Positions 23,076 to 39,791 of a DNA stretch of 39,882 nucleotides are shown in pieces. The stretch spans positions 1 to 39,882 of the forward strand of contig JAISYF010000173.1 of assembly GCA_031270065.1 (NCBI GenBank), in the 5' to 3' direction. Position numbers and translations under genes: made by a program. The notes under the pieces are model-generated. The model was not told the origin of the DNA, did no database searches, and saw nothing but the letters and a program-made list of their open reading frames with translations. This stretch comes from Prevotellaceae bacterium. GTDB taxonomy: Bacteria > Bacteroidota > Bacteroidia > Bacteroidales > Paludibacteraceae. The first letter of the stretch is position 1. Every line of letters begins with the position of its first letter.

Positions 23076-23321
23076 TTATTGATTTTTTACCTGTTGCGAC
23101 TGTTGCAGTTTATTTCTTAAAAATTCATTTTCTGATACACCTGTAACAAGGTGGTACAAGTCAATAGTAGGGTAGAGTTCCAGCATACGCTGTAATATTT
23201 CCCCCGATACATTATTTCTCTTTTTGTCAAAAAAAGAGGTTGAAACATTTAGCAATTTTGATAATTTGTATTTGCTAACGCCCTGATTTTGTGCGTATTC
23301 TCTTATTCTTTCCGAAATCAT
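23076..23321 (-). CDS. HTH-type regulator (phage)
   Basis: 81 aa; IREYAQNQGVSKYKLSKLLNVSTSFFDKKRNNVSGEILQRMLELYPTID. Confidence 0.7.
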   Translation of the reverse strand: MISERIREYAQNQGVSKYKLSKLLNVSTSFFDKKRNNVSGEILQRMLELYPTIDLYHLVTGVSENEFLRNKLQQSQQVKNQ

Positions 23322-23384
23322 TTTATTTCTATTTTTTCCGTAATAGTACGTTTTATTGTTGTGCTTTTTTTGCGCGGTTTGTTT

Positions 23385-23507
23385 TTACTCTGCGATTCTT
23401 TTGTTTGATTCTTTATTATAAAAAATCACAAAGAAAATAATAAGCAAAAGCGCACTAACGGAAATACCGAGTACCGATGCAATATCTGTAAATAATTGTT
23501 CTATCAT
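23385..23507 (-). CDS. 40-aa single-TM protein coupled to repressor
   Basis: MIEQLFTDIASVLGISVSALLLIIFFVIFYNKESNKRIAE, not in ORF track; ATGA overlap with the repressor stop. Confidence 0.6.
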   Translation of the reverse strand: MIEQLFTDIASVLGISVSALLLIIFFVIFYNKESNKRIAE

Positions 23508-23800
23508 TTTTTTTCTAAAATTTTGATGTATTTGTTTAAAGTTATTATTATTTCTTCTTTGTCAGCACACGCTTTGCAAATTTCCGATTTTGGCACATAT
23601 CTTTCAGGGTAAGTAATAATATCAATCACAGACACACCTAATTTATCTGCAATTTGTGATAATCTTTTAAAGGGAATATCGTTTGAACGATTAATATATT
23701 GAGAATAAGTATTCTGTTTTACTCCCAATAATTCCGCTAAAACGTCTTGATTCATACGCTTTTCTTTGCGGATTGCCTCAATATTTGCTAATATATTCAT
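23504..23800 (-). CDS. XRE-family repressor-like protein
   Basis: 98 aa; IEAIRKEKRMNQDVLAELLGVKQNTYSQYINRSNDIPFKRLSQIADKLGVSVIDII. Confidence 0.85.
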   Translation of the reverse strand: MNILANIEAIRKEKRMNQDVLAELLGVKQNTYSQYINRSNDIPFKRLSQIADKLGVSVIDIITYPERYVPKSEICKACADKEEIIITLNKYIKILEKK

Positions 23801-23957
23801 AATTTTTCAAAGTTAAATAATTGATTTTTAATTAGTTGTGATTTTTTTAAAAAAAATATCTGAAAATATTTTTTTTTATCGTAAATTTGTGATACTTTTG
23901 CAGTCTATTATTTAGACAAAAAAAAACAGTGTATAATAAATAATTTTAAAAAGAATT

Positions 23958-24173
23958 ATGAAACTAACTGACCAATGTATTGTTAGGATACGAAGAAATA
24001 GGAAGTTGCGCATCAAATTGATGTCTGATATACCTTTGTCGCGGTCTGGGTTGTATTTGCTTTTGAAGCAAAACAAAGAAAACAACAAATTGACGACTTT
24101 TTCCTCTTTGCAAATTATTTCTGCAATGGAAAAAATACAACTTGCGGATTTGATAGAAAAAAAATTATTTTAA
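23958..24173 (+). CDS. Small Cro-like/HTH protein divergent from repressor
   Basis: 71 aa; VRIRRNRKLRIKLMSDIPLSRSGLYLLLKQN; divergent arrangement with XRE gene. Confidence 0.5.
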   Translation: MKLTDQCIVRIRRNRKLRIKLMSDIPLSRSGLYLLLKQNKENNKLTTFSSLQIISAMEKIQLADLIEKKLF

Positions 24174-24232
24174 AAACGTAGGCGCGGTTACCTGTAAAAT
24201 TTACAAAATTAAATTCAAAAAGTTATGATTTT

Positions 24233-25564
24233 ATGTTATTTGTTGATAATATAGATTGGTTGCAAATTGCTTTTGAGAGTTCGGCGCATGCCGGGATAGA
24301 AAATCGGTTGTTTATGACACGCAATTTAGAATGTTCTACACCGATGTTTAATCGCGTGGAAGAGGTAATTTTTGACAATTCGTTATTATTTACCCCCGAA
24401 GAACATAAGCGATGGGATTGTGTAAGGTCCTCCGAGAACGGAGTAATTGGCGTATTATGCAGCGAATTACGCACTGACAAACTATTTCTGCCGAAAGATT
24501 ATTGCACTTTTAAATTTAAAAATCGTGCCTTATATGTTGTTTGTTCAGATAATGAAATGTTGATTATTAAAATTTTACGACAATTAGAAAACGATTTTTG
24601 TTTCAAAAAACACCATATAGTTAGATTGGACTTGTGCCGAGATTTTGAGAAATTTAAATATGGACTTTTGCCTGAAACATTTATACGCAATTTTTTTAAT
24701 GATAAAATTTATTTGGAGGGCAAAAAAGGACGTATTCCCAAAAGATTTAACGGCACAAAAATATATTACGAAGGCGCGGAATTGCAAGAACAGGTAACGC
24801 AAATTAACCAAAATGTAAAATCAAAGAAGTTTCAATATGAATTTGAAATAATTAGTAATGAAATTGACGGCAAAAATAGAATAAACACTTTGACTATTGG
24901 TAGTAAAAGTAGTTTAATTCAAAGGCAGTTATACAATAAGACAATAGAACAACAACGCGAGGAAAAGCCTTATTTAACTGAAATTCACGACAAAATAAAT
25001 TCGGACAGAAACAAGCGCGAAATTTGGCGTTTAGAGTTCAGATTAAAGGGCGCAATGCTAACTGTGGTAGATAATGAAATAAAAGCAAATAACAAAGAAA
25101 TATCAAACGAAATGCCCTTACAGATAGAAGATATTTGCAACGGTGCGCGAATCACTGCAATGATTGAATTTTTGATTGAAAATAAATTTACTTTTCGAGA
25201 GGCAGCAAATACACAGAACAAGGCGCGCGATTGGAAACGAATAGAACTCTTTGATGGACAAAGTTTAGACGGCAAAATAAAATTGAAAAGAATAGAAATT
25301 AAGAGTACGAGCAACCGCGCAAACAAAATATACATACGTGCGGAATACACTAATGACCAATCTTTGAGAAGTTACAAAGAATTTGAGAATATTATTAAAA
25401 GTAATTACGGTTATGAAATGTTAGAAATGTACAATAACTTCACAGAACTCAAACGCAAAATGTATGCGAATGAGTTTAATTTGACAAAATTTATAGAGGA
25501 AAAAGTAAAACCCTCTTTGGAGACTTATGTGCGAAATGAAGCATATAAGCGCAAAGGCGGTTAA
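24233..25564 (+). CDS. Rolling-circle replication initiator (Rep_trans/phage-plasmid replication protein-like)
   Basis: 443 aa; HIVRLDLCRDFEKF, NTLTIGSKSSLIQRQLYNKTIEQ, REIWRLEFRLKG: motif order of the Rep_trans replication initiator family. Confidence 0.75.
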   Translation: MLFVDNIDWLQIAFESSAHAGIENRLFMTRNLECSTPMFNRVEEVIFDNSLLFTPEEHKRWDCVRSSENGVIGVLCSELRTDKLFLPKDYCTFKFKNRALYVVCSDNEMLIIKILRQLENDFCFKKHHIVRLDLCRDFEKFKYGLLPETFIRNFFNDKIYLEGKKGRIPKRFNGTKIYYEGAELQEQVTQINQNVKSKKFQYEFEIISNEIDGKNRINTLTIGSKSSLIQRQLYNKTIEQQREEKPYLTEIHDKINSDRNKREIWRLEFRLKGAMLTVVDNEIKANNKEISNEMPLQIEDICNGARITAMIEFLIENKFTFREAANTQNKARDWKRIELFDGQSLDGKIKLKRIEIKSTSNRANKIYIRAEYTNDQSLRSYKEFENIIKSNYGYEMLEMYNNFTELKRKMYANEFNLTKFIEEKVKPSLETYVRNEAYKRKGG

Positions 25565-25598
25565 TAAATAATTAATAACTAAATAATTTTATTATTTT

Positions 25599-25922
25599 AT
25601 GCAGAATTTATCTTTAAATTTATGTGTTTCGGATATTCCGAAGCAGTTTGTCCGCAAGGGCAAAAATGGCAAATTCTATGTAAATTTGCTTGTAGTGCAA
25701 CGTAAAGAAATTGACCATTTCGGAAATACTCACACGGTTAAAATATCAAAGACCGCAGAGGAATTGCAGCTTGATACTGCAAATGTTTATGTAGGTAGTG
25801 GTAAAGTTTTTGAAATAAAAGAGACCACAGCCGACAAAGTTAGTCCGGAAGAATTACCGGAATTTATGCGCGATGCAGTTTCATCAGACGCACCCGAACC
25901 AATAAAGGAAGTTCCTTTTTAA
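25599..25922 (+). CDS. SSB-like protein with acidic PF tail
   Basis: 107 aa right after Rep; beta-rich N-terminus and C-terminus SSDAPEPIKEVPF resembling the SSB C-terminal tip. Confidence 0.55.
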   Translation: MQNLSLNLCVSDIPKQFVRKGKNGKFYVNLLVVQRKEIDHFGNTHTVKISKTAEELQLDTANVYVGSGKVFEIKETTADKVSPEELPEFMRDAVSSDAPEPIKEVPF

Positions 25923-25939
25923 GAAAAAACGCACTTAAA

Positions 25940-26321
25940 ATGAAAAAATTTGATATTACAAAATTTTATCCTTGTGTTGAATACTATAAGGCATCTTTTG
26001 GAAGACAAAAGAAGCATAGATGCCATTGACGCCGCTATGCGATACGCCAACGGCGATATGACAAGAGTTGAGTTAGATAAGTATGTTGCTGCTGCTTATA
26101 CTGCGTATGTTGCTTCTGATGCTGCTTATGCTGTTTCTGTTTTTGATGCTGATGATATTTATCTTGATGTTGCTCGTGCTGCTACTGTTTCTGCTGCTGT
26201 TTCTGCTGCTGTTTCTGCTGCTGCTGATGCTTATAATATTGCTTATAATTCCAACTGCAAAGCAACTGCCAACATTTGCAGGGAGATTTTAACCACAACA
26301 GTTCTTGAAATAATAAATTAA
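25940..26321 (+). pseudogene. Ala-rich small protein, apparently +1 frameshifted (MKKFDITKFYPCVEYYKASF | EDKRSIDAIDAAMRY...)
   Basis: Frame from ATG 25940 stops after KASFGRQKKHRCH; the open frame to 26321 begins only at a TTG (25950). Joining at TCT-TTT-(G)-GAA-GAC restores one continuous protein. Confidence 0.6.
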
Positions 26322-26400
26322 CAACAGCGGGGTCAAAATTGAAATTGTGAATTACTTTCAAAATTTATGTTACTTGTCTTTTTAACGGACAGGGCGCGGG

Positions 26401-26437
26401 TGTAACTTGTTGGAAATTAACAAGTTACATTTTTTTT
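26401..26437 (+). terminator. Intrinsic terminator of early operon
   Basis: TGTAACTTGTT-GGAAATT-AACAAGTTACA-TTTTTTTT. Confidence 0.9.
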
Positions 26438-26457
26438 AAAAAAAACATTCAAAAATA

Positions 26458-26487
26458 TTTGTATATTAAATTTTTTTTGTATCTTTG
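26458..26487 (+). promoter_or_regulatory. Promoter of candidate ncRNA
   Basis: TTTG (26458-26461), N18, TATCTTTG (26480-26487). Confidence 0.7.
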
Positions 26488-26491
26488 CGCC

Positions 26492-26618
26492 GTTATTTGA
26501 AACGGAAACGGGCAACGCAGGGGTGCGACCCGTCAGGGATAAAATAACCAACAGAGGCAGAATTTAACTTTGTGAATATGCACAACGCGGTATAGAACGC
26601 TTGTGCACTATTTTTTTT
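26492..26618 (+). ncRNA. Stand-alone structured phage ncRNA
   Basis: Begins at predicted TSS: P1 GTTATTT(26492-26498)/AAATAAC(26542-26548), P2 ACGGG/CCCGT (26508-26512/26529-26533), P3 CGCA-GGGG-TGCG (26516-26527); ends with terminator hairpin TGCACAA.../...TTGTGCA (26579-26607) and T8. Confidence 0.75.
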
Positions 26619-26764
26619 GTCAATATAAGTTCCATTTCCAAAAACAGACAAATGCGCTTAAAACGGCTCTAAAAGCCTCATTCACCTGCCTGTTTGCAAA
26701 TGCCTCAAAAACCCCTCAAACAAACTATAAAAATGATTAAAAAACAATCAAAGTAAAATAGACA

Positions 26765-26790
26765 GCGTAAAGTAACACGCTGTTTTTCAA
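26765..26790 (+). terminator. Hairpin with T tract
   Basis: ACAGCGT-AAAGTAAC-ACGCTGT-TTTT in ...GACAGCGTAAAGTAACACGCTGTTTTTC. Confidence 0.55.
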
Positions 26791-27000
26791 TACATATAAG
26801 TTGTGAAAATAACGCTGTTATATAATACATAAAAAAGTTAGTTAAATATTTAATTTACAGTACTTTATGTTGCAAAAAATCTGTTTTAAAAAAAACAGAT
26901 AAATCTACAAAAGATTTTGTTAGATTTTGACACTTGTTTTGTTTATTTTTTTTACTTACTTTTGCAAAAATTAATTACTAACTAAATAATTTGTTTCGTA

Positions 27001-27383
27001 TGAAAAAATTAATCTTATTATTATTCCTTGCGCCCATTTTATTTACAGGCTGCGGTAACGAAGAACCAGTACCAAAGAGAACACAACCTTTAAAAGTTTC
27101 TTTTTCTTACACAATTCAAAATTATGATGTAGAATTAAAATCTACATCAACGGGCAATGCTCCTTTAAAATATCAATGGTTTGTTACGTTGGAACACAAT
27201 AGAATTGCACCTTTTGGCAGTCCGATTGATATTATTATTGACGATACGCCAAACAACTGGACAAACAACAAAAATGTATCATTCACTTTGACAGGCGGTG
27301 GAAAATTAGAAATGACTTTATTTGTAATGGACGGCGTTACTGGTTATATTGATTCTTATAGTAAGTCAATAACCATAGAGTAA
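27001..27383 (+). CDS. Lipoprotein (Ig/PKD-like), candidate lysogenic-conversion gene
   Basis: MKKLILLLFLAPILFTGCGNEEPV lipobox; upstream TACTTTTGC promoter-like element; downstream hairpin GCGTGA-TTTTT-TCACGC + T tract. Confidence 0.75.
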
Positions 27384-27491
27384 AGTGCAATGTATTTGCA
27401 CCGTTATTGCAGCGTGATTGCAGCGTGATTTTTTCACGCTGTTTTTTTTATTGCAAATATATTTGTATCTTTGCCGAAATTTTATTTAACA

Positions 27492-27683
27492 ATGAAAATA
27501 GAAATAAAATCAAAAATTAGAATTAAAGATGTACAGTTGTTCGTTCCTAATTTGCACACTACAAGTGCTTGGGATTTGATAAATACGGCAAGAAGGGAAC
27601 TTAATATTGTAAAACCACAATTTCTTACTATTGAAAGATTTTGTGAATTTTACAATATTAAAATTTCGGATTTTTCAAAATAA
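27492..27683 (+). CDS. 63-aa hypothetical protein
   Basis: MKIEIKSKIRIKDVQLFVPNL...; preceded by TTTG...TATCTTTGC promoter near 27450-27475. Confidence 0.5.
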   Translation: MKIEIKSKIRIKDVQLFVPNLHTTSAWDLINTARRELNIVKPQFLTIERFCEFYNIKISDFSK

Positions 27684-27731
27684 AAGTTAAAATAAGATTG
27701 TACAAATAAATTATTATTTAATTTTGCACTA

Positions 27732-28394
27732 ATGAAAGATAGTACTTTAATATTGGGCGGTTTAGGCTTGTTGTGGCTATTTAATAAAGGAAAGAAACTT
27801 TATAACAACCTCAATAATTTGCGTTTTGGTTTGGATGGTTTGCATATTGTAAATTTTGATAGCACCGCGCAAACAATCCTTTTAAACATTGATTTTAAGA
27901 TATTTAATCCGTACAATATTACATTGATGTTTTATGAGATAGACGCACAAATATTTTTCAATGATAAAGCAGTTGGGAATATTAAAAGCGCGGTCAATAG
28001 ATATATTTATGCCAATAGCACAAGTATCATTCCGATGTCTATAACTCTAAATTACAGCGATTTAGGAACGGAACTTTGGGAACATATTACAAGCGGAGGA
28101 CGAATTGACGATTGGCGAATTAATATAAAAGGGACTGTAAATGTACAAAATATAAACATACCTTTGGCACTGCAATTTATCTTCCAAGATTTTGTCAGCG
28201 GCACAGAACACGCTGTAAGAACTGTTGACAAAGCAGAAATTTTACATAAATTGATTGATTTAGGATTGACCGAGAAACAGGCAAAAAATGCGATGGAAGA
28301 AAACTATTTGCAGGTTTTGTCTGAGAAAAGGCAATCGGAAACGGACAAAATCGCAAAGGAAATTTTTACACGCTGGCAACTTATGATGTTTTAA
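27732..28394 (+). CDS. N-terminally membrane-anchored protein, LEA type 2-like
   Basis: 220 aa; MKDSTLILGGLGLLWLFNKGKK TM; FDSTAQTILLNIDFKIFNPYNITLMFYEIDAQIFFNDKAVG...PLALQF resembles LEA_2 domains. Confidence 0.6.
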   Translation: MKDSTLILGGLGLLWLFNKGKKLYNNLNNLRFGLDGLHIVNFDSTAQTILLNIDFKIFNPYNITLMFYEIDAQIFFNDKAVGNIKSAVNRYIYANSTSIIPMSITLNYSDLGTELWEHITSGGRIDDWRINIKGTVNVQNINIPLALQFIFQDFVSGTEHAVRTVDKAEILHKLIDLGLTEKQAKNAMEENYLQVLSEKRQSETDKIAKEIFTRWQLMMF

Positions 28395-28397
28395 TTT

Positions 28398-29960
28398 ATG
28401 GCGCGTTTTATTGCAGAAAATAAAGACAATTTCAAAAAGAAAGGTATTACAAAAGATATTATCACGCAGGTAATTAATACCTTTAAAAAGGACTATTTGC
28501 AATGTGTAGACGTTGCAAAGGAACTGCAAGGCAAAAGTAATATTGAGACTTATGAAAATATATTTAATTACGTTCTTAAACATGTTGAATATGTAGCAGA
28601 CCCGCAAGGCGTGCAATGGATTAAAACCCCCGCGCGACTGATTACAGACGGCAAAGGCGATTGTAAAAGTATGGCAATTTTTATCGCAAGTTGTTTGCGC
28701 TGTCTGGGAATAGATGCTTATTTTCGGTTTGTGTCCTTTGGCAAAAGCAAAACGCCTACACACGTCTATATTGTAACTTACGACAATATAATAATAGACC
28801 CTGTGGAGCGCGTAAATGGACAACCAAAATTCAACTATGCACAAGAATATAATACTAAAATAGAGATAATGAATACTACAAATATATATGAATTAAGAGG
28901 GATTGGCAGTAATGAAACGACAACGATTGATTACACACCCTACACTGGCGCAAAGAGTTTTTTAGAGAATTCTATTGCCGAGAATTATTTGTGTAGCGAA
29001 ATTGATTATCTTACAACGCTTTTAACCATAGAGCCGACAGCCGAGAATTTTAATCAGTGCGATGCAATGGCACTTTCATTATATTTATTACAAAATGGTT
29101 ACGATAACGAGAAAGGCGGTTTGATTTTGCAAAAAATGAAAGACGAAGGACATTTTAATTATTTGAGTATCAACGAGAAAGAGCGCGTGGTACATTTAGA
29201 TAAATTGTTTGAAACAGCAAGAAATGTTGATATTTTAGATTTTAAAATTGGCGCAGATACAGAAGTTGCTATTTGGTATAATGATATTTTGAAACAAAAT
29301 GTAATTGAAGGGCGGAACCAAGAGGGAATTGAAGAATATGAAAAATTAGTTGGTGAAAATAAAATTGGAATTACAACAAAGCAAAAAAATGAATTAATCG
29401 CAAAAATGAAAGAGTCAGGTTGGGGCTTTTGTTACATTTTGGCTAATCCGATGTGGATTGTTAAGCAGTCGGAGAAATACCCGGAAATGCAACGTAAATT
29501 ACAAAATGAAAATGGATTGTTCATGCAATGGTACACGTCCTTAACAAAATATTTTACACAGCAAACAATATTGAATTATTTAAAGGATGGATTTATAAAG
29601 CAGACAAATCAGACGCCCGAGAATTACATTTTAGCGGGTATTAAAAAGGGAGAATTACCCTCTGCCCCAAATATTGGTATAGCAGCATCTGTTGTAGCCG
29701 CAATTATAGCAGCGGTAGCAGCGGTAGTAACAACTGTCTTAAATATGATTATTGCATTAATTCAAAAATCAATGCAAAGTCCGACCAACTACCCAAACGA
29801 TATTCCACCGAACAATGATGATTATTTAAGTGCCGAAGATTTAAAAGGTGATAGTGGTAGCGGAAGCGGAACAACAGACGAAAAGAAGAGCAGTTTATTA
29901 CCTATTTTATTAATTGGAGGTTTAATTTTTTTAACAAAAAATAATGAGTACGAAAGATAA
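28398..29960 (+). CDS. Transglutaminase-like cysteine protease/amidase domain protein with C-terminal TM segments
   Basis: 520 aa; ITDGKGDCKSMAIFIASCLR (Cys), THVYIVT (His), IIIDPV (Asp); hydrophobic SVVAAIIAAVAAVVTTVLNMIIAL and terminal SSLLPILLIGGLIFLTKNNEYER. Confidence 0.75.
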   Translation: MARFIAENKDNFKKKGITKDIITQVINTFKKDYLQCVDVAKELQGKSNIETYENIFNYVLKHVEYVADPQGVQWIKTPARLITDGKGDCKSMAIFIASCLRCLGIDAYFRFVSFGKSKTPTHVYIVTYDNIIIDPVERVNGQPKFNYAQEYNTKIEIMNTTNIYELRGIGSNETTTIDYTPYTGAKSFLENSIAENYLCSEIDYLTTLLTIEPTAENFNQCDAMALSLYLLQNGYDNEKGGLILQKMKDEGHFNYLSINEKERVVHLDKLFETARNVDILDFKIGADTEVAIWYNDILKQNVIEGRNQEGIEEYEKLVGENKIGITTKQKNELIAKMKESGWGFCYILANPMWIVKQSEKYPEMQRKLQNENGLFMQWYTSLTKYFTQQTILNYLKDGFIKQTNQTPENYILAGIKKGELPSAPNIGIAASVVAAIIAAVAAVVTTVLNMIIALIQKSMQSPTNYPNDIPPNNDDYLSAEDLKGDSGSGSGTTDEKKSSLLPILLIGGLIFLTKNNEYER

Positions 29961-30723
29961 AATTATAAAATATTTTAAGGACAATGCAGGCAGTTATGTA
30001 TATATTTTTATATTGGACGATGCCGCGCCACTATTTAATAAAGATATTCAACAAAAACGTTTGAATCAGATTGAGTATGTAATTCAATCCGCTCAATTAA
30101 GTTCTTTGAGTTACAATGATATTGCGACTGTTATTTCTGGAAAAATAAAATCGAAGTACGGCAAAACGCCGATGGAGTGTTTAAAATTATTGGCACAAGG
30201 AATTACCGTATATGCAACAGATGGCAGCAAAATAGGTAGCGTTGGCATTGGTGCAACGTCAATTAATGCACAGACAGGATTACCGAACAATTACAAAGGT
30301 ACATTTGACAACGACACCACCACAGATGGCAGATATAGCAGAATTATTGATTGTGAGAAAGATACTGTTTTAAATATTGTTGACAATAAAACCGGAAATA
30401 TTTTGTCTACGTATAATCAACAAACTAATACATATTCTGGTGGTGGTCAAAGTTCGGAATGGTGGACAATTCTACAATCTTGTTTGCCTGCAATTATGAG
30501 TTTATTAGAGTGGCTGGGCAATTTGCTTTTGGGTAAAAATGCAACAGGAATGAACACAGGCGCAAGACAAGGAGACGGATGGGGAAGTAAAGACGGACAG
30601 TCTGACAAGTGGAATAACGGCAATAAATCAACAATGGATTTGACTACAATATTACTTGTTGGTGGTATTGCTTATTTAGCACTCAAAGATAACGGAAAGA
30701 AAAATATTATCCTTGAGTACTAA
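29944..30723 (+). CDS. Putative virion membrane protein with C-terminal anchor
   Basis: 259 aa; ends STMDLTTILLVGGIAYLALKDNGKKNIILEY; overlaps preceding gene. Confidence 0.6.
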   Translation: MSTKDKIIKYFKDNAGSYVYIFILDDAAPLFNKDIQQKRLNQIEYVIQSAQLSSLSYNDIATVISGKIKSKYGKTPMECLKLLAQGITVYATDGSKIGSVGIGATSINAQTGLPNNYKGTFDNDTTTDGRYSRIIDCEKDTVLNIVDNKTGNILSTYNQQTNTYSGGGQSSEWWTILQSCLPAIMSLLEWLGNLLLGKNATGMNTGARQGDGWGSKDGQSDKWNNGNKSTMDLTTILLVGGIAYLALKDNGKKNIILEY

Positions 30724-30810
30724 ATAAGCATCGTAAGCACTGACATTGAAGCAAAATATCTTTGCTTTGGTTGTTACAAAATAATTATTAACAAAATCAA
30801 ACATTTAACA

Positions 30811-30993
30811 ATGGCAAAATTAAAAATGTTGAAGTACCCACGCAAGCCGAAAACAATGGCGAGCGTTGCGTCCAAAGAAAAATATTTGGTACGCTGTAAG
30901 GAAATTGACAAGGAAAATGGACGAAGAAAATCAGAAAACAAGAAGTCCGAGGATTTGTCAAAAAAGATTGCTGGACTTAAACCAGTAAGGTAA
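30811..30993 (+). CDS. Small highly basic protein
   Basis: 60 aa, Lys/Arg-rich: MAKLKMLKYPRKPKTMASVASKEKYLVRCKEIDKENGRRK. Confidence 0.6.
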   Translation: MAKLKMLKYPRKPKTMASVASKEKYLVRCKEIDKENGRRKSENKKSEDLSKKIAGLKPVR

Positions 30994-31019
30994 GAACTTT
31001 TAAATTAAATTTTTAAAAA

Positions 31020-31442
31020 ATGAAAAAAATTAATGTAAAAAATGGTTTGCAAGGTCGGTTGATTGGTTCGGCAATTGGTGGCGCAGCATCTGCTGTGTTC
31101 GACACTTATGTAACAGGTTATTTACCCGAATCAATGCAAGATTCACCCGATATTGCTAAGATTGTTGCAGGCGCGTTTATTCCGTCTGTTATGAAGTCCG
31201 ATTTAGGTCGCTCACTCGGAGACGGCTTGATGACGGTAGGTTTGGCTAATTTTATTAGCAGCAAACTTGAAGAAACTACCGATACTACTACAACAACAAC
31301 TACAACAGGTAGCGGAGTTGCAGGTATTGGAGCAGGTAGAATTAATCCTTTCGCTGCATACGCGCACAGGGTACGCGGCATTGAGAATTCGCAAAGAAAA
31401 ATTGCAGGTGCAGGCGTAGGTCGCTCTGTAAGAGGTTGTTAA
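31020..31442 (+). CDS. Gly/Ala-rich putative virion-associated protein
   Basis: 140 aa; GSAIGGAASAVFDTYVTGYLPESM, Thr-rich stretch, basic C-terminus. Confidence 0.55.
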   Translation: MKKINVKNGLQGRLIGSAIGGAASAVFDTYVTGYLPESMQDSPDIAKIVAGAFIPSVMKSDLGRSLGDGLMTVGLANFISSKLEETTDTTTTTTTTGSGVAGIGAGRINPFAAYAHRVRGIENSQRKIAGAGVGRSVRGC

Positions 31443-31464
31443 ACTTTAAAATTTTTATAAAAAA

Positions 31465-32214
31465 ATGAATGTAATTAATAATTCACCCTCGTATGAGGTA
31501 AGAAAGAAAATATTCAGCGTATTGTCTGAATGGGGCAAGCAGAACGATTGTGTGCCACAAGAAAGTTATTTGCGTCTATCTAAACCGTTGCAAAATGGAG
31601 TTGGACACTACACTTTTGACCCGTCTGTAAAGGCGATTGTACAGGGCGATAAATCGTTGTCCGAAGGCGATGTATTTTTCGGGTTAGGAAATATTGTTGG
31701 TTTGATGCTCGACACAGACCCTGTTCGCACAGGTGCAGCACCAATTCTCACATACCCATTGCTTGTAAGTGCAGCAAGTCGTGGTTTTATTGCCGAAGAT
31801 ATTTTCCGTTTGTATTATGGTATTCTCACGAGGAGAACTGTACAAACACAACTTAATGAAGGTTTTCCAGTTGCAAAATTCCGCGTTACGCCGGAAACAC
31901 AACCAACCTTTATTATAGATGCAGATGGAGTTTCTCACTCTTTGGGATTGCAGCCTGAGTACGATTACGAACGTGCTATTAATTGGTTTGCTATCAATTT
32001 CGTAATGAACGGAAAAGACAGCAATATGATTGAACTTGACTTTAACGGCACCGATGCAAACTTTGCCGTTGCCGAAGCAGACCAAACAACTGTAAGTACC
32101 ACACACAAACCTTATCTTGTGTATGAAGAGTTTGGCTTCCTGATGAAAGGAGCAGCAAATGCAGATGTGAAGAATTCTCTTGAATCATTTATTGCTGCAC
32201 GTCTTAAATGGTAG
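31465..32214 (+). CDS. Candidate major capsid protein of tailless phage
   Basis: 249 aa, no TM, central in structural operon; followed by a strong hairpin (32244-32269). No fold evidence available. Confidence 0.45.
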   Translation: MNVINNSPSYEVRKKIFSVLSEWGKQNDCVPQESYLRLSKPLQNGVGHYTFDPSVKAIVQGDKSLSEGDVFFGLGNIVGLMLDTDPVRTGAAPILTYPLLVSAASRGFIAEDIFRLYYGILTRRTVQTQLNEGFPVAKFRVTPETQPTFIIDADGVSHSLGLQPEYDYERAINWFAINFVMNGKDSNMIELDFNGTDANFAVAEADQTTVSTTHKPYLVYEEFGFLMKGAANADVKNSLESFIAARLKW

Positions 32215-32243
32215 CAAAAAAAATGAAAAAAATTATTTAGTGG

Positions 32244-32269
32244 CTTGGTGCCGTTGGGTCGGCACCAAG
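32244..32269 (+). promoter_or_regulatory. Intercistronic hairpin after candidate capsid gene (attenuator/RNA stabiliser)
   Basis: CTTGGTGCCG-TTGGGT-CGGCACCAAG, perfect 10-bp stem, no long T tract. Confidence 0.7.
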
Positions 32270-32302
32270 TTTCAAAAATTACAAGATGTAATAAAAAAAA
32301 TT

Positions 32303-33010
32303 ATGGCAAAAATTGTTGAAAATATAGACTTAATCAGAATTCATTTAGATAATGCAGGCAATTATTATTTGTCTGAAAATGTGAATTTTAAAGACAAGAA
32401 TATTTTGTTTTTTGGATTTTGTTTTGGTACAAATTCAACAATCGATTTAACAACAGGTACCATTTTGTTGGAAAAACCAGAATGTAAAGGAATTTTTTTA
32501 ACTCTACAAAACGAAAAAAAAACTGTTGTAAAAAATTTTGCGGTACAAAATTTAGACGTGCAAATGTATTCTGTACAAGCACCAATCAACCGCGTTTTAG
32601 ACCTTAAAAACTGTTATGTTTCAATAAATAATACTTTTCAAAATAAGATACTTTTAATGTACGTTTTCTATGGGAAATTAACCGAACACTCTTCCGAATG
32701 GGGTGTTAATTTCCCTATTAACGTACCCGCAAATTACAGAGGTACATTACAGCAGATAGTCGGGGACGTGAGAAATTTTGTTACTCTAAAATGGATTTCG
32801 GTAGAGGAGGGGACAAATGCCTTTTTAACTTTTAGAGCAAAAAACAAAGAGAATTGCTTGGAATATTTGAATACAAAAATTTTCCAAGCAAATATAGATG
32901 ATGAAATTATTGTAAAAAATGATTGGTTATTGAATTTTGAAGATGTAAATTGGGACAATTCCGAAGTAATAACAGATTCAAACGAATTAAAATTAAATCT
33001 TTATTTTTAA
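32303..33010 (+). CDS. Hypothetical, beta-rich, putative minor capsid protein
   Basis: 235 aa from ATG 32303 (MAKIVENIDLIRIHLDNAGNYYLSE); the longer ORF from 32180 would overlap the capsid gene and hairpin. Confidence 0.5.
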   Translation: MAKIVENIDLIRIHLDNAGNYYLSENVNFKDKNILFFGFCFGTNSTIDLTTGTILLEKPECKGIFLTLQNEKKTVVKNFAVQNLDVQMYSVQAPINRVLDLKNCYVSINNTFQNKILLMYVFYGKLTEHSSEWGVNFPINVPANYRGTLQQIVGDVRNFVTLKWISVEEGTNAFLTFRAKNKENCLEYLNTKIFQANIDDEIIVKNDWLLNFEDVNWDNSEVITDSNELKLNLYF

Positions 33011-33015
33011 AAAGC

Positions 33016-33789
33016 ATGTATAAAAAATTGACTTTAAAATATGGTAAATCAATAGAAATAGACCTTGCAGGACAAGTTAAGGTATATTTTCCCGCCCTTT
33101 TAGAATTGGCAGGAAAGAATGTAATTTCTATTGATTTTATGCAAGATATTACAAATTTTTCTGGCGCGGAACAGCCAACAGATTTTTCCGATTTATTTTT
33201 AAATTTGACCGAAAACGGACAAAAATATTTCACTTTGAATTACCCTCTTGATAGAATTAACATCAAAAATACACGCGGTCTAAAGCTTGATATAAACCGC
33301 AAAATCAACTTTGCAGACTGTTATATTTATAATCCGACTGTGCAAACAGGCAGTATCACATTTGTGGTATGGTGGAGCGAACAGGCGACAAAAGAACAAC
33401 AGGCTACTTTATCTGTTTTTGATAATGTAGAATTGATTTTAAAACAGGGCAACGGTTACAATAACCTTTTCCCCGATTACAAGACGTTTGTAGGTTATTC
33501 GGTGAAAAACATTATTTTACCTGACGTTTTGATTTCACCAAGCAGTGTGGATATTGTTAGCGCAATAACGCTAAATGCTGCATATCTTACTTTGCAAAAA
33601 GGTACAAAAATTGTTTTTGACCAAATGCCACTAATTGCTTTGCAGCAAGAATTAATGTACGAACATCTAACTTTTGACAAATTGGAATTTGATTTTAACA
33701 ATTCATTTATACAAATTGCGAAAAATTTAGATGTTTCTGCAGACTTAAATAAAAGAATTTTACTCACATTTGAATTTGAAGACAAATGA
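33016..33789 (+). CDS. Hypothetical, beta-rich, putative minor capsid protein
   Basis: 257 aa from ATG 33016 (MYKKLTLKYGKSIEIDLAG). Confidence 0.5.
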   Translation: MYKKLTLKYGKSIEIDLAGQVKVYFPALLELAGKNVISIDFMQDITNFSGAEQPTDFSDLFLNLTENGQKYFTLNYPLDRINIKNTRGLKLDINRKINFADCYIYNPTVQTGSITFVVWWSEQATKEQQATLSVFDNVELILKQGNGYNNLFPDYKTFVGYSVKNIILPDVLISPSSVDIVSAITLNAAYLTLQKGTKIVFDQMPLIALQQELMYEHLTFDKLEFDFNNSFIQIAKNLDVSADLNKRILLTFEFEDK

Positions 33790-34598
33790 CCGTTTGGGAA
33801 GAGATACCGAATCTGATAAGGTTAAATAAATTTGAAACCTTTAATGTTTCCACCAGTTCCGCAGGTGGCAAAGATTTTGTGTTTGTTTATGATGACACAA
33901 AAGATGTTGAAGAAAACATACAAGATTTAGATATGGTAATGTCTGCACTAACAGGGAGAGCGTTTTATTTGTTTGGGAAAAAGAAAGAAAATGCAAATCG
34001 GCAAATTTTTTGTTTTAAATTTTCAAAAGACGGCATTAATGACGCGAAAGTTGCAGGTGTTCATGGCGCAAATATTGGTTACACAGATGATTTTGTGCAA
34101 AAAATGATTGCTGTTGAGATTGGAAAAGTAAAATCAGAGATGCAGGAAGAAATTTTAAGGCGTAGAGAGCAGGAACTCAAAGAGAAGTTCGACAAACAAG
34201 AACGCGAAATTAAAGAGGAACGCAAAGAACTTGACAAACGCAAAGGTGACGGGATAGAAATGTTTTTGCAATCTTTGGGAAAAGCGTATCCGCAAGTAAA
34301 GCGTTTTATTTCAGGCGACAAGAGCGACAAGGTCGCAGGCACAGCAGAACTGTATGCAAAAGTTGCAGGCACGGAAGAAATTCAGGAAAAAGCAGTAGAA
34401 GTTGAGATTTTGGAAGATAACGAACTTGAAACAAGAATTAATGATTTGTTGCAACGTTGGAACGCTGCCGAACCCGATTGGCTTATGATAATGGAAAAAA
34501 TTGTACAAATTTGCGAAGATAAACGCGAAATTGATGTGATGGGGGGGATGGTGAAATTGCCATATGAGAAATTAAAATCAATAATTTTAGAATATTAA
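33786..34598 (+). CDS. Coiled-coil hypothetical protein
   Basis: 270 aa; charged helix EEILRRREQELKEKFDKQEREIKEERKELDKRKGDG. Confidence 0.6.
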   Translation: MTVWEEIPNLIRLNKFETFNVSTSSAGGKDFVFVYDDTKDVEENIQDLDMVMSALTGRAFYLFGKKKENANRQIFCFKFSKDGINDAKVAGVHGANIGYTDDFVQKMIAVEIGKVKSEMQEEILRRREQELKEKFDKQEREIKEERKELDKRKGDGIEMFLQSLGKAYPQVKRFISGDKSDKVAGTAELYAKVAGTEEIQEKAVEVEILEDNELETRINDLLQRWNAAEPDWLMIMEKIVQICEDKREIDVMGGMVKLPYEKLKSIILEY

Positions 34599-34599
34599 A

Positions 34600-35484
34600 A
34601 TGTTTGAATCTTCAATATATAATATTAATTCCAATAGAATTTTAGTAGAAAATTCTTTGAAGTCAAAGGCTGTTAAAGTTGTTAATGCAGGTGCAATTAT
34701 CTATGTGCAGTATAATGACAATAATTACATTGACAAAGAATTAGGAAGTAGTGAAATTGGCACAATCGTAAATTGCACAGGTGCATATATTCCACTTAAT
34801 GACGGCAGCACAATTTACCAGACAGAAGGCGGCTTTTGGGCAAATATTAGACAAAATAATAATGATTGGAAGTTTGTCAGCAGAACAGTCAGCGCGATTA
34901 GTATCACAACCGCACAAGATTATATAAATGCGACACTTGCGAATAATGCTTCTATTTTTGAGAATAATTTGTTTTGCGCGCGTTTTGCAAGCAAATTAAA
35001 TAACAGCGAAAAACAAGTGCTTTTTGGGCTGCAAACAAGATTAATGCAGCGCAATGAAATGATTAAAAATTCTGCCGAAATTGAAAGCAAAGTTGAATCA
35101 TACCCGAACGGTTATATTAAATGGGAAAGTCAGTTAAATGCCTTTATGCAAGATCCCTATATTAATTCTGTAACTACTTTGATTATTATTTCGTGCGTAA
35201 TTCTATTTGTTACAATAACAAGTATTGTTCTTTACAAGAAGATTTATTCTGAAAGCAAGAATGATGTAAAATTTTCAAAAAATTTAACGCGCACTTTGGA
35301 ATCAAGACTTACCAAAGAGGAGCGCGAACAATTATATAACGAAACGGCAGGACTTATAACCGCAGCAAGGATTAAAGAAAAAACAAAATCCATTGCCGGA
35401 GGTTTATCTTTTGGATTGATTGCAATTGCAGCAGGTTTATTTTTTCTACCCTCAATTTTAAATGAAAAAAACAATGGAAATTAA
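34600..35484 (+). CDS. Membrane protein with two TM segments
   Basis: 294 aa; VTTLIIISCVILFVTITSIVLY and GGLSFGLIAIAAGLFFLPSIL. Confidence 0.6.
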   Translation: MFESSIYNINSNRILVENSLKSKAVKVVNAGAIIYVQYNDNNYIDKELGSSEIGTIVNCTGAYIPLNDGSTIYQTEGGFWANIRQNNNDWKFVSRTVSAISITTAQDYINATLANNASIFENNLFCARFASKLNNSEKQVLFGLQTRLMQRNEMIKNSAEIESKVESYPNGYIKWESQLNAFMQDPYINSVTTLIIISCVILFVTITSIVLYKKIYSESKNDVKFSKNLTRTLESRLTKEEREQLYNETAGLITAARIKEKTKSIAGGLSFGLIAIAAGLFFLPSILNEKNNGN

Positions 35485-36184
35485 ATTTGATGAAAATATA
35501 AAAGACAAGGCTCTTGCTGTGAAGTGTAAGTATGCAAACACTTATAAATTGGAAAATGATTTATTTGTTGGTTGTTGGAGTTTGGCAAATGAAACTTTGC
35601 AACAAAATCAAGTTACAGTAGATAAAGACAAATGGATTTTGCCGGTAACAACAGGAAATTATTGTTTTTCCGAACAATTTGGAAAAAAATATACAATGAT
35701 GTTGGAATATTATTTGCCCGGTATGGAACAATTTTTTGCAACTGAATATATTGTCGATAAGAAAGACCGAAATAAAAATGGATTAACTCTAAAAGCATGG
35801 AAACGTGGCTATATAAATGATGAGAAGGCATATTCAATCATTATTGCTACAATTAGCGATTTAACATTAATGAACGCACAACTTCTAACACTTGGCGGTT
35901 ATTATGTTGTTGATTTGCAAAATGGGGAATTTATTGTGAAACGTTCTTATGACGGTTCAGTATTATATCGTAATATTAGATATTTTGCGCCGGAAATTAC
36001 GCAATGGGTAAGATTGATTGCTGTAACTAATGATATTTCGGCAGAATATTTAGAATCACTGTATAAACAAAATTTTAATGATGGTGAAAACGGTAATACA
36101 AAAGAAATAGAAGAAAAAAAAGAAAAAAACTTATTATCTTTATTAATTGGTTTATATGTTACTCACAAAGCAGGTTTATTTTGA
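35462..36184 (+). CDS. Hypothetical with C-terminal membrane anchor
   Basis: 240 aa; ends EEKKEKNLLSLLIGLYVTHKAGLF. Confidence 0.6.
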   Translation: MKKTMEIKFDENIKDKALAVKCKYANTYKLENDLFVGCWSLANETLQQNQVTVDKDKWILPVTTGNYCFSEQFGKKYTMMLEYYLPGMEQFFATEYIVDKKDRNKNGLTLKAWKRGYINDEKAYSIIIATISDLTLMNAQLLTLGGYYVVDLQNGEFIVKRSYDGSVLYRNIRYFAPEITQWVRLIAVTNDISAEYLESLYKQNFNDGENGNTKEIEEKKEKNLLSLLIGLYVTHKAGLF

Positions 36185-36187
36185 AAA

Positions 36188-36457
36188 ATGATAACATCAC
36201 AAAAATATAATTGTACGGTACGCTGTGAGCTAATAACTCAAAGTACAATCATTGAAAATGATGGTTTTACTTCCATTTCAGTGCAGAATTTAGACAGTAA
36301 AGGTATTGTTGTTAATGATGTTATAAGTTTGGGTTATAAAGATAAATTTGAAATAGAATTAGAGCCTTATTGTGTTCTCAATCAAAGTTTTAAAATAGTT
36401 TCTACTGGTCCTTTTTCAGCGTTAATTATTAAAAAATATTACACAAAAATAAATTAA
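36188..36457 (+). CDS. Small hypothetical protein
   Basis: 89 aa ORF in series. Confidence 0.5.
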   Translation: MITSQKYNCTVRCELITQSTIIENDGFTSISVQNLDSKGIVVNDVISLGYKDKFEIELEPYCVLNQSFKIVSTGPFSALIIKKYYTKIN

Positions 36458-36461
36458 ATTT

Positions 36462-37874
36462 ATGAATATCATACAAAGTAATATAGCGGGTGCGAATCAA
36501 AGGTATTTGACTATTTATGATGCAAACAAAGATTTTGCGCTAAAAACAGATATTCCGATAATACCGGAGTCAATAGTTATTGATGCGTACAATATGTTTG
36601 ATTGGGAAAGTACAACTGAAAATTTTGTTTCGGCACTATTTTACAACACTAAGGACCCGATTATAAAATTATGCGTAAATAATGAAAGTGAGGATTCACT
36701 TGTAATTACAGCGGAATTAGGTTTTGGGGCTAAAGTAGGCAGCGTAAATAACGTTGTTTTCGATGCCGATGGAGTAGCACAGATTGTAGAAATTACACCC
36801 GAAATAGGGCAGACGCAAACAACTATCACTATACCTGCTGCCTGCAAAGGCGAAATATTTTATGGTTGCGATGTAACTGAAAATAACTTTGGCAAGTCAT
36901 ACATCATTGCCAATCAGGGGGAAGGCGGGACTATAATAGTGAAATTAGTTGCTTCTGACTTTGCGAAGTTCTTTAACTTTGGCGACGAAAGTACTGTTAT
37001 CGTTTTTGAGAATATTTCTGTTGCCAAGTCCGCAGTAACAAGTATTGTAATTAACGATGATATTATACCCGCAGCATTGGCGGATGGCGTAAACACGACG
37101 ATTAGCGAACGTTTTATAACAAATTTTATAAATTGTACTTTTGTAGATTTTTACGGATTGCGAAATGTTACTTATTTTGGCAACGGATCTTTTGCAAGCA
37201 TTGCAGCAAATAATCCCGCAACTTATTTTACGAATGTTATAAAAGTCGGATTTAGTTTCTTCTCAGAATTTAGAGGAACTCAATTTGATTTGACGCCATT
37301 TTCTAACTTGCAAGAAGCAGATTTATATTTCATTTCAAATTGGAATAATGTTTTAGAATTAGATTTGAGTAAGTTAGTAAAGTTAGGAGGAAGCTTTCAA
37401 ATGTTTCTTGAAAACCTTCCGCAATTACAATCGAATGTTTCTTTAGATTTTCTTGATAACGAAATGACTACTGGATTTAATCTGGTTTCTTGTCTATCGC
37501 GTCTCTATTCTGTCAAACGTATTGACGTATCTAAATTGGCAACTATTGATTTGGATAAATTTATACATGGATATTATTGGAACGATAGAATTGCCTTTGC
37601 TGCAAATTCGTTAGAAGAATTTGTAATTGGCGATTACATAATTCCGCAGAGTCAGCCTGTATCGACAGGAACTTTGCAGCGTACATTAGCTGTGCAAGAA
37701 TATTCACCCGCAGCAATTAACGGCATAACCATCACAGGAACGAGGGCTGCCGTAGGTAGACTGATAGAAGTAATTGGAGACCAAACTCCCTACCATTACA
37801 ACGGTTATCCTTCTTTTGAATATAATTTTGTTTGGAATTTAATCTCAAATTATACAGACGTGAATAATGACTAA
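36462..37874 (+). CDS. Putative spike/receptor-binding protein, leucine-rich-repeat-like C-terminal half
   Basis: 470 aa; DFYGLRNVTYFGNGSF...PFSNLQEADLYFI...LDLSKLVKLGGSFQMFLENLPQL...VKRIDVSKLATIDL. Confidence 0.5.
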   Translation: MNIIQSNIAGANQRYLTIYDANKDFALKTDIPIIPESIVIDAYNMFDWESTTENFVSALFYNTKDPIIKLCVNNESEDSLVITAELGFGAKVGSVNNVVFDADGVAQIVEITPEIGQTQTTITIPAACKGEIFYGCDVTENNFGKSYIIANQGEGGTIIVKLVASDFAKFFNFGDESTVIVFENISVAKSAVTSIVINDDIIPAALADGVNTTISERFITNFINCTFVDFYGLRNVTYFGNGSFASIAANNPATYFTNVIKVGFSFFSEFRGTQFDLTPFSNLQEADLYFISNWNNVLELDLSKLVKLGGSFQMFLENLPQLQSNVSLDFLDNEMTTGFNLVSCLSRLYSVKRIDVSKLATIDLDKFIHGYYWNDRIAFAANSLEEFVIGDYIIPQSQPVSTGTLQRTLAVQEYSPAAINGITITGTRAAVGRLIEVIGDQTPYHYNGYPSFEYNFVWNLISNYTDVNND

Positions 37875-38442
37875 ACAGCAATTCATATCTACCTATTGGC
37901 AACACGCTGTTGCTTGTCAGACTGCATACGGGTTGCCGTTAGCGGTTATTTTGGCACAGGCGGGGCTTGAGAGTGGTTGGGGTGCTTCTGTTTATCAAAA
38001 TAATTTTTTTGGCATAAAGGCAAATAGTGCGTGGAAAGGCAAGAAGCAACTTTTGCGAACACACGAAATGTTGCCAAAGAGTAGCGGGTATTCGTTCCCG
38101 GAAGTGATTAGCATAACACCCACAAGCACAGGTAAGTATGATTGGTATGTACGTGATTATTTTCGGGCTTACGACACAGCGGAAGAGGGTTTTATGGATT
38201 ATGGAGCATTTATAACGGGTAACTCAAGATATAACAATGCGGTTATAAATTACAAAAACACAGGCAACTGGCAGGCGTATTGCAGAGATATTGCGGCAGC
38301 GGGGTACGCAACGGCTACAAACTATGCGAACAGTTTAATTAGCACAACCGAACAGGTAATAAATTATCTGCCTCTTGATTGGCAACAAGTAAAGGCAAAT
38401 TCGGCAAAAAAAAAAACTTCGCTGGTGGTTCAGAATTTTTAA
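37867..38442 (+). CDS. Glucosaminidase / FlgJ-like lytic enzyme
   Basis: 191 aa; GLPLAVILAQAGLESGWGAS...NNFFGIKANSAWKGK...FRAYDTAEEGFMDYGAFITGNSRYNNA...YATATNYANSLI. Confidence 0.85.
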   Translation: MTKQQFISTYWQHAVACQTAYGLPLAVILAQAGLESGWGASVYQNNFFGIKANSAWKGKKQLLRTHEMLPKSSGYSFPEVISITPTSTGKYDWYVRDYFRAYDTAEEGFMDYGAFITGNSRYNNAVINYKNTGNWQAYCRDIAAAGYATATNYANSLISTTEQVINYLPLDWQQVKANSAKKKTSLVVQNF

Positions 38443-38531
38443 TAATTGGAATTTTAGCAGGATTATATTTTTTAAATAATAAAAACAAAAACAATTTTGA
38501 TTGTATGATAAAAAATTATATTAAAAATTAA
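38406..38531 (+). other. A11 slippery tract plus -1-frame extension encoding a C-terminal TM anchor
   Basis: A11 at 38406-38416; -1 frame from 38415 reads NFAGGSEFLIIGILAGLYFLNNKNKNNFDCMIKNYIKN then TAA (38529-38531). Confidence 0.6.
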
Positions 38532-38549
38532 AAATTAAATAATAAAATT

Positions 38550-38903
38550 ATGGAAATTCAAACAATTATTTCAGCAATCATAGGGCTGTTAGCCTTAATT
38601 GCAACAGGTGGATGGTTTATTAATTATCGTCAAAAAAAAACTATCGAAAGCGCAAGTGCCGACAATGCTACTTTATCGGCTTCAAAAAATGCCGTTGATT
38701 TAGCCAATGAGATAGCACAGAAATACAACACTATTATTTTATCTTCAATGGGGGAGCACGAGAAACGCCACGATGATGTGGAAAGTAAACTTGATGTATT
38801 ATTGTATGAGGTTACAATTATTGGTAAATATCTAAATGGCGGGTTGGCAAAGTTCAAAAAACAGCAGCGTGATGAACGTGGGCGTTTCATTAAAAAAAAA
38901 TGA
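38550..38903 (+). CDS. Single-TM holin/lysis-like protein
   Basis: 117 aa; IISAIIGLLALIATGGWFINY N-terminal TM, coiled middle, basic C-terminus FKKQQRDERGRFIKKK; downstream of lytic enzyme. Confidence 0.55.
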   Translation: MEIQTIISAIIGLLALIATGGWFINYRQKKTIESASADNATLSASKNAVDLANEIAQKYNTIILSSMGEHEKRHDDVESKLDVLLYEVTIIGKYLNGGLAKFKKQQRDERGRFIKKK

Positions 38904-38910
38904 AAAAATT

Positions 38911-39240
38911 ATGAAATATGCAATTTATATATTATCTGTTTTATTGCTAATCTGCTGTATTTCAATCGGTTTCTTGTGGAAAATGTACAGTAAAACGGCA
39001 GCGCATACACAGGCGCAACAGGTGCAAATTTTGGAACTCGATAGCGCACTTCAAAAGGCACTAAACAAGACCGAAACGTCAATAAAATTTAGCATACAGC
39101 CGACAATAACCAACAAGGTTACTTCTGCTTTTGGAAGTACAAAAAATGTAACATTGCAATATTATTTCACTTTGGACGGTAAGGCGATGATAGTAAAGGC
39201 AGATAGCACTTATCAAATAACAAAAGAGTATGCGAAATGA
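38911..39240 (+). CDS. Single-TM spanin-like protein
   Basis: Starts MKYAIYILSVLLLICCISIGFLWKMYSK at 38911; N-terminal TM followed by coiled periplasmic-type region. Confidence 0.5.
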   Translation: MKYAIYILSVLLLICCISIGFLWKMYSKTAAHTQAQQVQILELDSALQKALNKTETSIKFSIQPTITNKVTSAFGSTKNVTLQYYFTLDGKAMIVKADSTYQITKEYAK

Positions 39241-39359
39241 ATTTTTGAAAATTCCGAAAAAAAATAACATAAGATTAGGTTTTCATAATTTAAATAAATG
39301 TAATTTTGTACGCACATTTAAAAAATATTTTTTTGAAATATTTGAGTAGATGATGTGAA

Positions 39360-39395
39360 AATGGATTCCCGCCTTTGCGGGTTTCCATTTTTTTA
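39360..39395 (+). terminator. Intrinsic terminator of late operon
   Basis: ATGGATTCCCGCCTTTGCGGGTTTCCATTTTTTTA. Confidence 0.8.
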
Positions 39396-39791
39396 TATTG
39401 TACCAAAAAATTGTGAATTATCCTTTGCAATTTTGGTGCGTTTTTTTATGTATCGTTCCGTTGTGTCAAAAGATTTATGCCTGCAATGATTCATTACATC
39501 AAACGGGTGCATACCATTTTGTAACGCTGTAATTATGCCTGTGTGCTTGAAAGAATAAAATTTACATTGAGGGTTAATTCCGAGTTCGCGGCGTACATCA
39601 GCGAAGAGGCGGTTAAAATGATTCATTCCGAAAGGTTTATTTTCTGTAACAGATTTTTTTCTAAATAGGTAATAATCAGCGTTTTGCAAGTGGTAACCTT
39701 GCATAATTAATTGTTCTAATAAAATTTTCGGAATAACTACATTTTCCGTTGTTCTATTTTTTGGGTAATGATGCCAAAAATAGTTGGTAAT
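39393..39791 (-). pseudogene. Tyrosine recombinase remnant (C-terminal catalytic part only)
   Basis: FYSFKHTGIITALQNGMHPFDVMNHCRHKSFDTTERYIKK (H-x-x-x, H, Y motifs). Frame stays open upstream as ITNYFWHHYPKNRTTENVVIPKILLEQLI then meets a TAA (+ strand 39792-39794); N-terminal domain and first catalytic Arg absent. Confidence 0.7.

Follow-up and report, generated by a model that had tools for sequence, protein, structure and literature searches.

The stretch of DNA examined here (the window) is 39,882 nucleotides long and comprises the whole of contig C14 (JAISYF010000173.1) in the draft genome GCA_031270065.1 of a Prevotellaceae bacterium, placed in the Paludibacteraceae. Genes up to position 23000 are host-like. 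A mostly co-directional block starts at 23042, and the region 23042-39882 is a provirus, which carries a repressor, a replication initiator, a long late operon with predicted jelly-roll proteins, a lysis cassette and part of an integrase. A first-pass annotation, made from the sequence alone, had described this region as a temperate, tailless prophage. The open reading frames (ORFs) and coordinates it listed agree with those found in the present analysis.

Ends of the provirus

One end of the provirus is marked by an attachment-site repeat of 18 bp, TTTGTGGAACTGACGGGA, at 23042..23059. The same 18 bp are found on another contig of the genome (G000:C42, 17659-17676), where they form the 3' end of the transfer-messenger RNA (tmRNA) gene, and the N-terminal part of a tyrosine integrase adjoins the tmRNA gene on that contig. 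The C-terminal part of the integrase is located at 39405..39761 of the window, on the reverse strand, and aligns with residues 280-399 of the integrase of a relative, L037 (E 3.9e-28), while the end of C42 encodes residues 110-282 in the same numbering. The integrase remnant of the first-pass annotation is therefore real, with its complementary part on C42. Taken together, these features define an integrated element; not counting an insertion that lies within its integrase, it measures about 17.5 kb. One end of this mobile insertion occupies 39762..39882 and contains a 20-bp inverted repeat, ATGCCAAAAATAGTTGGTAA, at 39771-39790, which is also present at C42 18330; a short target duplication flanks the insertion. 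Its other end is seen at C42 18326-18435, and its middle part is missing from the assembly. The possibility that the integrase is merely cut by a contig edge was rejected, since both contigs continue for about 110 bp past the break and terminate inside the common inverted-repeat sequence.

The late operon and its relatives

A single order of late genes is retained in the window and in at least 13 other Bacteroidota loci; the 14 loci compared here were collected with iterated profiles. Across these loci 11-13 late genes are syntenic, with lysozymes and variable genes interspersed, and chance cannot give such a recurrence. In the window all of the late genes are on the forward strand. The first is g70 (27471..27683), which encodes a small helix-turn-helix (HTH)-like protein present in 12 of the 14 loci and matching gp04 of phage PhiCjT23 (E 6e-5). 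It is followed by a LEA_2-domain protein (27732..28394; Pfam LEA_2 1.6e-8; 12 loci) with an N-terminal segment resembling a membrane anchor, hydrophobic in 11 of 18 homologues and borderline in the window copy, and by a transglutaminase-like (TGL) putative virion protein (28398..29960; Pfam Transglut_core 1.5e-7) with a C-terminal transmembrane (TM) tail. The tail-anchored protein tmC (29944..30723) belongs to a group in which 17 of 20 sequences have such a C-terminal TM tail. Next come a basic protein of 60 residues (30811..30993; 12 loci) and the Gly-rich protein ggm (31020..31442), which is 130-150 residues long and occurs in 14 of 14 loci. The putative shell proteins are a single jelly-roll protein of 249 residues (31465..32214; 14 of 14 loci), which from its predicted fold may be a small major capsid protein (MCP) or a penton, and the two-domain proteins b1 (32303..33010) and b2 (33016..33789), the latter being the candidate for a large MCP. 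The conserved order is completed by a coiled-coil protein, cc (33786..34598; 13 loci), a membrane protein, tm290 (34600..35484; 11 loci), with two TM segments at 193-211 and 269-287, and g89 (36188..36457; 12 loci), a protein of 89 residues.

Two genes of the operon are specific to the lineage. The protein encoded at 35462..36184 in a variable slot has a homologue in none of the 13 other loci, and the leucine-rich-repeat-like protein at 36462..37874, seen in the window locus only, is from its variable position a candidate for receptor binding. The lysozyme/glucosaminidase (37867..38442) is firmly identified (PHROG endolysin 4.5e-40; NCBIfam FlgJ-like), as had been noted earlier for the lytic enzyme. 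In the stretch that follows (38379-38531), the reading frame changes at a run of A residues and a Gly-rich TM tail of the typical kind is encoded, judged by sequence and hydropathy; this frame change may be either a sequencing slip or a programmed frameshift. The operon ends with a spanin-like putative lysis protein (38550..38903) that has one TM segment and a weak match to the PHROG Rz-like family (0.006), and with a second single-TM protein of the lysis region (38911..39240; TM 4-22).

The first-pass annotation had assigned TM segments to many structural ORFs. Their distribution is uneven: the statement holds for the TGL protein, for tmC and tm290 and for both lysis ORFs, but no TM segment is present in the jelly-roll, coiled-coil and 89-residue proteins, a single marginal hydropathy peak in b2 being located inside a predicted strand.

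Relatives of the window element possess complete integrases, and for two loci the ends could be placed exactly. In one, an 85-bp repeat in tRNA-Pro bounds 19,819 bp; in a second, 15-bp repeats in tRNA-Pro are about 21.0 kb apart. Whole-genome searches found relatives in the order and family of the host (13 of 358 family genomes, including that of the window), and a phylum-wide sample gave 1 of 396 genomes, which was the window itself. The TGL profile, run over GTDB genomes, contributed further loci from Chitinophagaceae, Chitinophagales and Saprospiraceae, and the same profile retrieved only one contig, of 63 kb, from IMG/VR. Searched as a single sequence, the 249-residue jelly-roll protein gave nothing in IMG/VR, INPHARED and PDB; profile searches of PDB sequences were equally negative, as was the first profile (A1) in IMG/VR. 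PHROGs and INPHARED do not contain the late gene order, and IMG/VR contains almost nothing of it. Since 13 of 358 genomes of the host family carry members and yet the virus catalogues almost lack them, virus finders overlook the group.

Contig C47 of the same genome (1-21537; L086, L087) carries another element that is broadly of this type and divergent. Its g70, LEA-TGL fusion, Gly-rich and coiled-coil genes follow the order of the late operon, and it also encodes a lysozyme, a methylase and a large helicase; as it runs the length of the contig, it is larger than 21 kb. Another member, L043, comes from a contig that binning had placed in Candidatus Omnitrophota. This is probably a binning error, because the gene content suggests a Bacteroidota element.

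Predicted folds and absent genes

Models were built with AlphaFold2 from home-made alignments. The model of 31465-32214 is a single jelly-roll-like domain (predicted local distance difference test, pLDDT, 79; predicted template-modelling score, pTM, 0.82), and that of b2 contains two tandem jelly-roll-like domains (pLDDT 91.6, pTM 0.89). Jelly-roll folds had been proposed as a check for these two ORFs and for 32303-33010, which is a paralogue of b2: the two proteins have an HMM (hidden Markov model) family in common. When the single jelly roll was compared with PDB by Foldseek, nearly all of the top 50 matches were jelly rolls of viral capsids (best E 3e-3). The two best matches of b2 were P2 of phage PM2 (8.9e-4) and the MCP of Sulfolobus turreted icosahedral virus (STIV; 2.2e-3, probability 0.87), with TM-scores of 0.2-0.3. 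The predicted folds are weak singly; combined with the synteny they are persuasive.

In the structural ORFs at 29944-37874 no PHROG or Pfam family was matched above chance, and for this reason no terminase, portal or tail gene was found there, in agreement with the first-pass annotation. Pfam and PHROGs name only the repressor, the LEA_2 protein, the TGL protein, the endolysin and the integrase fragment. The marks of tailed phages (Caudoviricetes), namely terminase, portal and HK97-type capsid, were likewise not seen, either in PHROG and Pfam searches of these ORFs or in the search for a packaging Walker A motif. The structural ORFs were also correctly said to lack a Walker A packaging ATPase: the lone [AG]xxxxGK[ST] string of the provirus, AKELQGKS in the TGL protein, is a chance match, and no packaging ATPase was found in the provirus, including one of the FtsK/HerA type that is usual, not universal, in Bamfordvirae. 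No relaxase or type IV secretion system (T4SS) gene was recognised among the ORFs read.

The TGL protein and the link to SSIP-1

Among 50,697 phage records the sole match of the TGL protein was gp34 of Salisaeta icosahedral phage 1 (SSIP-1), which is annotated as structural (E 4e-5). The match was repeated with the TGL sequence of a relative, and the family HMM finds gp34 with E 8e-15, so that the window protein is of the gp34 type. The gp34 protein is itself a Transglut_core protein, and the catalytic Cys, His and Asp residues (C89-H122-D134) are invariant in 18 TGL members and gp34. Among the viral models of BFVD, Foldseek with the single jelly roll gave I1ZBH9 (211 residues, probability 0.99) and I1ZBI0 (256 residues, probability 1.00), presumably gp46 and gp47 of SSIP-1; gp46 is also first, weakly, among the SSIP-1 proteins for the single jelly-roll profile. 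With the exception of TGL, most family profiles remained below significance against SSIP-1 proteins in hhalign. This includes the pairs ggm-gp44 and g89-gp48, which are not claimed as homologies. Gly-rich C-terminal TM tails are found in TGL, tmC and tm290 and in gp34, gp39, gp41, gp42 and gp53 of SSIP-1, as against 1 of 21 host ORFs.

The replication module and the early region

The replication initiator (24233..25564, forward strand) had been described as Rep_trans-like. The Pfam match is below the cut-off (E 0.1), but the protein does match the replication protein of PhiCjT23, a temperate single-stranded DNA (ssDNA) membrane phage (PMC9719478), with E 2e-5 and 30% identity over 166 residues; this was its sole match in the 50,697 phage records, and rolling-circle replication is probable. 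Searches for the Rep in plasmids, in IMG/VR and in 198 genomes from the host order returned only the window itself. Relatives with the same virion module have helicase-primases of the DUF5906 type or other replication proteins. In a same-genus relative (L031, 4113-5099) the replication protein is unlike both the window Rep and the helicase type, and is possibly a plasmid-like initiator. The GC skew of the late module is 0.16 in the window, the highest of twelve, and 0.02-0.09 in 11 relatives, a value that in this one sequence fits a more single-stranded life. The Rep and the skew do no more than hint at a circular ssDNA genome in the virion. The occurrence of one capsid module with different replication modules raises the question of whether a single kind of shell may enclose both ssDNA and double-stranded DNA (dsDNA).

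Upstream of the initiator is a repressor on the reverse strand (23504..23800; Pfam HTH_3 9e-12, PHROG transcriptional regulator 8e-13), and the same strand carries a small HTH-like regulator (23076..23321; weak Pfam HTH_26, E 0.065). Of the proposed repressor/Cro-like switch, the repressor is confirmed; the small divergent ORF at 23958..24173 (forward strand) is possibly Cro-like by position and matches no profile. The remaining early genes are on the forward strand. The label of single-stranded DNA-binding (SSB) protein given to 25599..25922 has no profile support, and inspection of the sequence shows an acidic C-terminus ending in PF that makes it possibly SSB-like. It is followed by an Ala-rich accessory ORF (25950..26321), of which a similar copy is located at the end of contig C47 (75% DNA identity over about 350 bp), and by a lipoprotein-like ORF (26991..27383) with a signal-like N-terminus containing a Cys, found among the 14 loci in the window only. 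No credible RNA was found in an Rfam search.

Doubling of the jelly-roll domain

The halves of b1 and b2 are homologous to each other (hhalign 99%, E 3e-18). In L047 (12517-13873) and L052 (12851-14149) there is a single one-domain b protein in the position where Bacteroidales members have two two-domain b proteins. These one-domain proteins, of 134 residues in L047 and 156 residues in L052, align over their own length to either half of b1 or b2 (95.6-97.7%); the corresponding ORF of L048 is too diverged to call. The one-domain form belongs to the Chitinophagaceae/Chitinophagales-type and IMG/VR members and the two-domain form to the Bacteroidales members. A tree of the halves separates them by position and not by protein: the first halves of b1 and b2 cluster together, as do their second halves, and the 26 first halves fall within a clade of 27 tips, with moderate support and long branches. 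The simplest order suggested by this is doubling of the domain followed by doubling of the gene; alternatively, the one-domain members may have lost a domain. The series from single to tandem domains in one gene neighbourhood makes the debated origin of the double jelly roll accessible to direct structural test.

A tentative and rather doubtful extension is that the family has been caught between one and two jelly rolls, with a single b in the Chitinophagales-type members, a tandem fusion later duplicated into b1 and b2 in Bacteroidales, and one capsid module paired with an ssDNA-phage-type Rep (in the window) or with a helicase-primase. If true, the origin of the double jelly-roll shell would here be either independent or intermediate, and the type of genome would have changed while the capsid was kept.

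Interpretation and alternatives

From these results we propose that the element is an integrated phage that is temperate, tailless and icosahedral, probably with a membrane inside the shell, and that it is a member of a family-level group of Bacteroidota viruses to which SSIP-1 is a distant relative. We estimate the probability of this reading at about 0.83. Its tailless, membrane-protein-rich and temperate nature, proposed in the first-pass annotation together with the lack of a match to a known family, is well supported, and the TM tails of the virion-operon proteins are suggestive of an internal membrane. The group was not found described in the databases and literature searched (excluding subscription journals and preprints). 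Its only laboratory-grown relative is SSIP-1, an orphan phage from salt water.

In the life cycle that we envisage, the genome would integrate as a circle at the tmRNA 3' end through the action of the tyrosine integrase, and the CI-like repressor would keep the provirus silent. On induction the PhiCjT23-type Rep would start rolling-circle replication, and the late operon would be read from g70 onward. The shell could combine a protein with a single jelly roll and two paralogues with two jelly-roll domains each. Beneath it would lie a membrane carrying many tail-anchored proteins, among them one with a transglutaminase/cysteine-protease-like domain. No packaging ATPase encoded by the virus would take part in the uptake of DNA, and the lysozyme and two small membrane proteins would open the cell.

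Several points weigh against this proposal. The Foldseek TM-scores are low (0.2-0.4) and the E-values modest, so that the capsid assignment is a convergence of several weak signals. The TGL domain is part of a large superfamily, and for this reason the link to SSIP-1 through TGL alone is unspecific and may be generic. The single jelly roll matches gp46 weakly (hhalign probability 19%), and the identification of I1ZBH9 and I1ZBI0 with gp46 and gp47 was deduced from the exact lengths and order of neighbouring accessions. One member of the TGL alignment matches tape-measure PHROGs, probably by similarity of helical repeats. Finally, as the integrase is interrupted, the C14 copy may not excise.

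This last point touches the idea that the element is dead or domesticated and produces no particles, which concerns the C14 copy only and is compatible with the group reading given above. The insertion in the integrase and the lysozyme frame broken at the A-run speak for it. All conserved virion genes of the window are, however, open and full length at 20-40% identity to their relatives, which requires selection, and relatives possess complete integrases and precise ends; we consider a dead copy unlikely. The ordinary explanations, a tailed prophage, a plasmid or an integrative conjugative element (ICE), fail. An integrase, a plasmid-like Rep and many membrane proteins would be expected of a plasmid or ICE with surface proteins as well, but the viral capsid folds, the endolysin with its lysis cassette and the structural-gene homology to SSIP-1 would not, and since neither a relaxase nor a T4SS gene could be recognised among the ORFs read, this very improbable reading was rejected for want of a mobilisation gene.

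The first-pass annotation had inferred a larger, integrated lineage with a lifestyle similar to that of FLiP. In this rival reading the virion and replication genes would both come from the ssDNA lineage of FLiP and PhiCjT23 (Finnlakeviridae-like), of which the element would be a larger, integrated representative. Part of this is retained: the Rep matches PhiCjT23 only, g70 (70 residues, HTH-like) matches its gp04, a packaging ATPase is absent as in FLiP (PMC5894146), and the late module of the window is more GC-skewed than those of the 11 relatives. The virion proteins, however, match neither FLiP nor PhiCjT23, their best link being to SSIP-1, and relatives with the same virion genes have helicase-type replication modules. 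Membership of that lineage therefore appears improbable.

Comparison with known systems

The Odin group (Yutin et al. 2018) consists of small jelly-roll viruses without a packaging ATPase (PMC5894146). As far as can be compared by description, the window element is similar in both respects but the gene sets differ. P23-77 (Matshushitaviridae) and the sphaerolipoviruses encode one-barrel and two-barrel capsid proteins side by side (PMC4958249). This pattern fits the predicted folds of the window, the likeness being one of fold pattern alone; those viruses, however, encode a packaging ATPase. PM2 and STIV provide the two best PDB matches of the b2 model, but they too have packaging ATPases, and the family HMMs gave no sequence match between the virion proteins and FLiP, PhiCjT23 or PM2, including the MCP and penton of FLiP at the sequence level.

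PhiCjT23 and FLiP (Finnlakeviridae and relatives) resemble the window element in the Rep homology to PhiCjT23, the g70-like protein and the Bacteroidota hosts; PhiCjT23 is also temperate, and FLiP is without a packaging ATPase (PMC5894146). Their genomes, however, are only 7.6-9.2 kb and their virion proteins have no sequence match in the window. PhiCjT23 integrates by XerCD/dif, while the window element uses its own integrase at tmRNA.

SSIP-1 is an icosahedral phage that contains a membrane and two types of MCP (PMC6356626, PMC6260650, PMC4958249), and it was reported to have hardly any sequence in common with known viruses (PMC6356626). It differs from the window element in its 44-kb dsDNA genome and in a P-loop ATPase (gp40) among its structural proteins, while the provirus is about 17.5 kb, without such an ATPase and with a PhiCjT23-type Rep. 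The likeness lies in the TGL protein (gp34), the single jelly roll by fold (gp46/gp47, on the deduced mapping), the Gly-rich TM tails and a host from Bacteroidota, broadly defined. The gene order is also comparable, with the Gly-rich gp44, capsid proteins gp45-47 and the small gp48, the first and last correspondences being weak. SSIP-1 would thus gain distant temperate relatives in many Bacteroidota.

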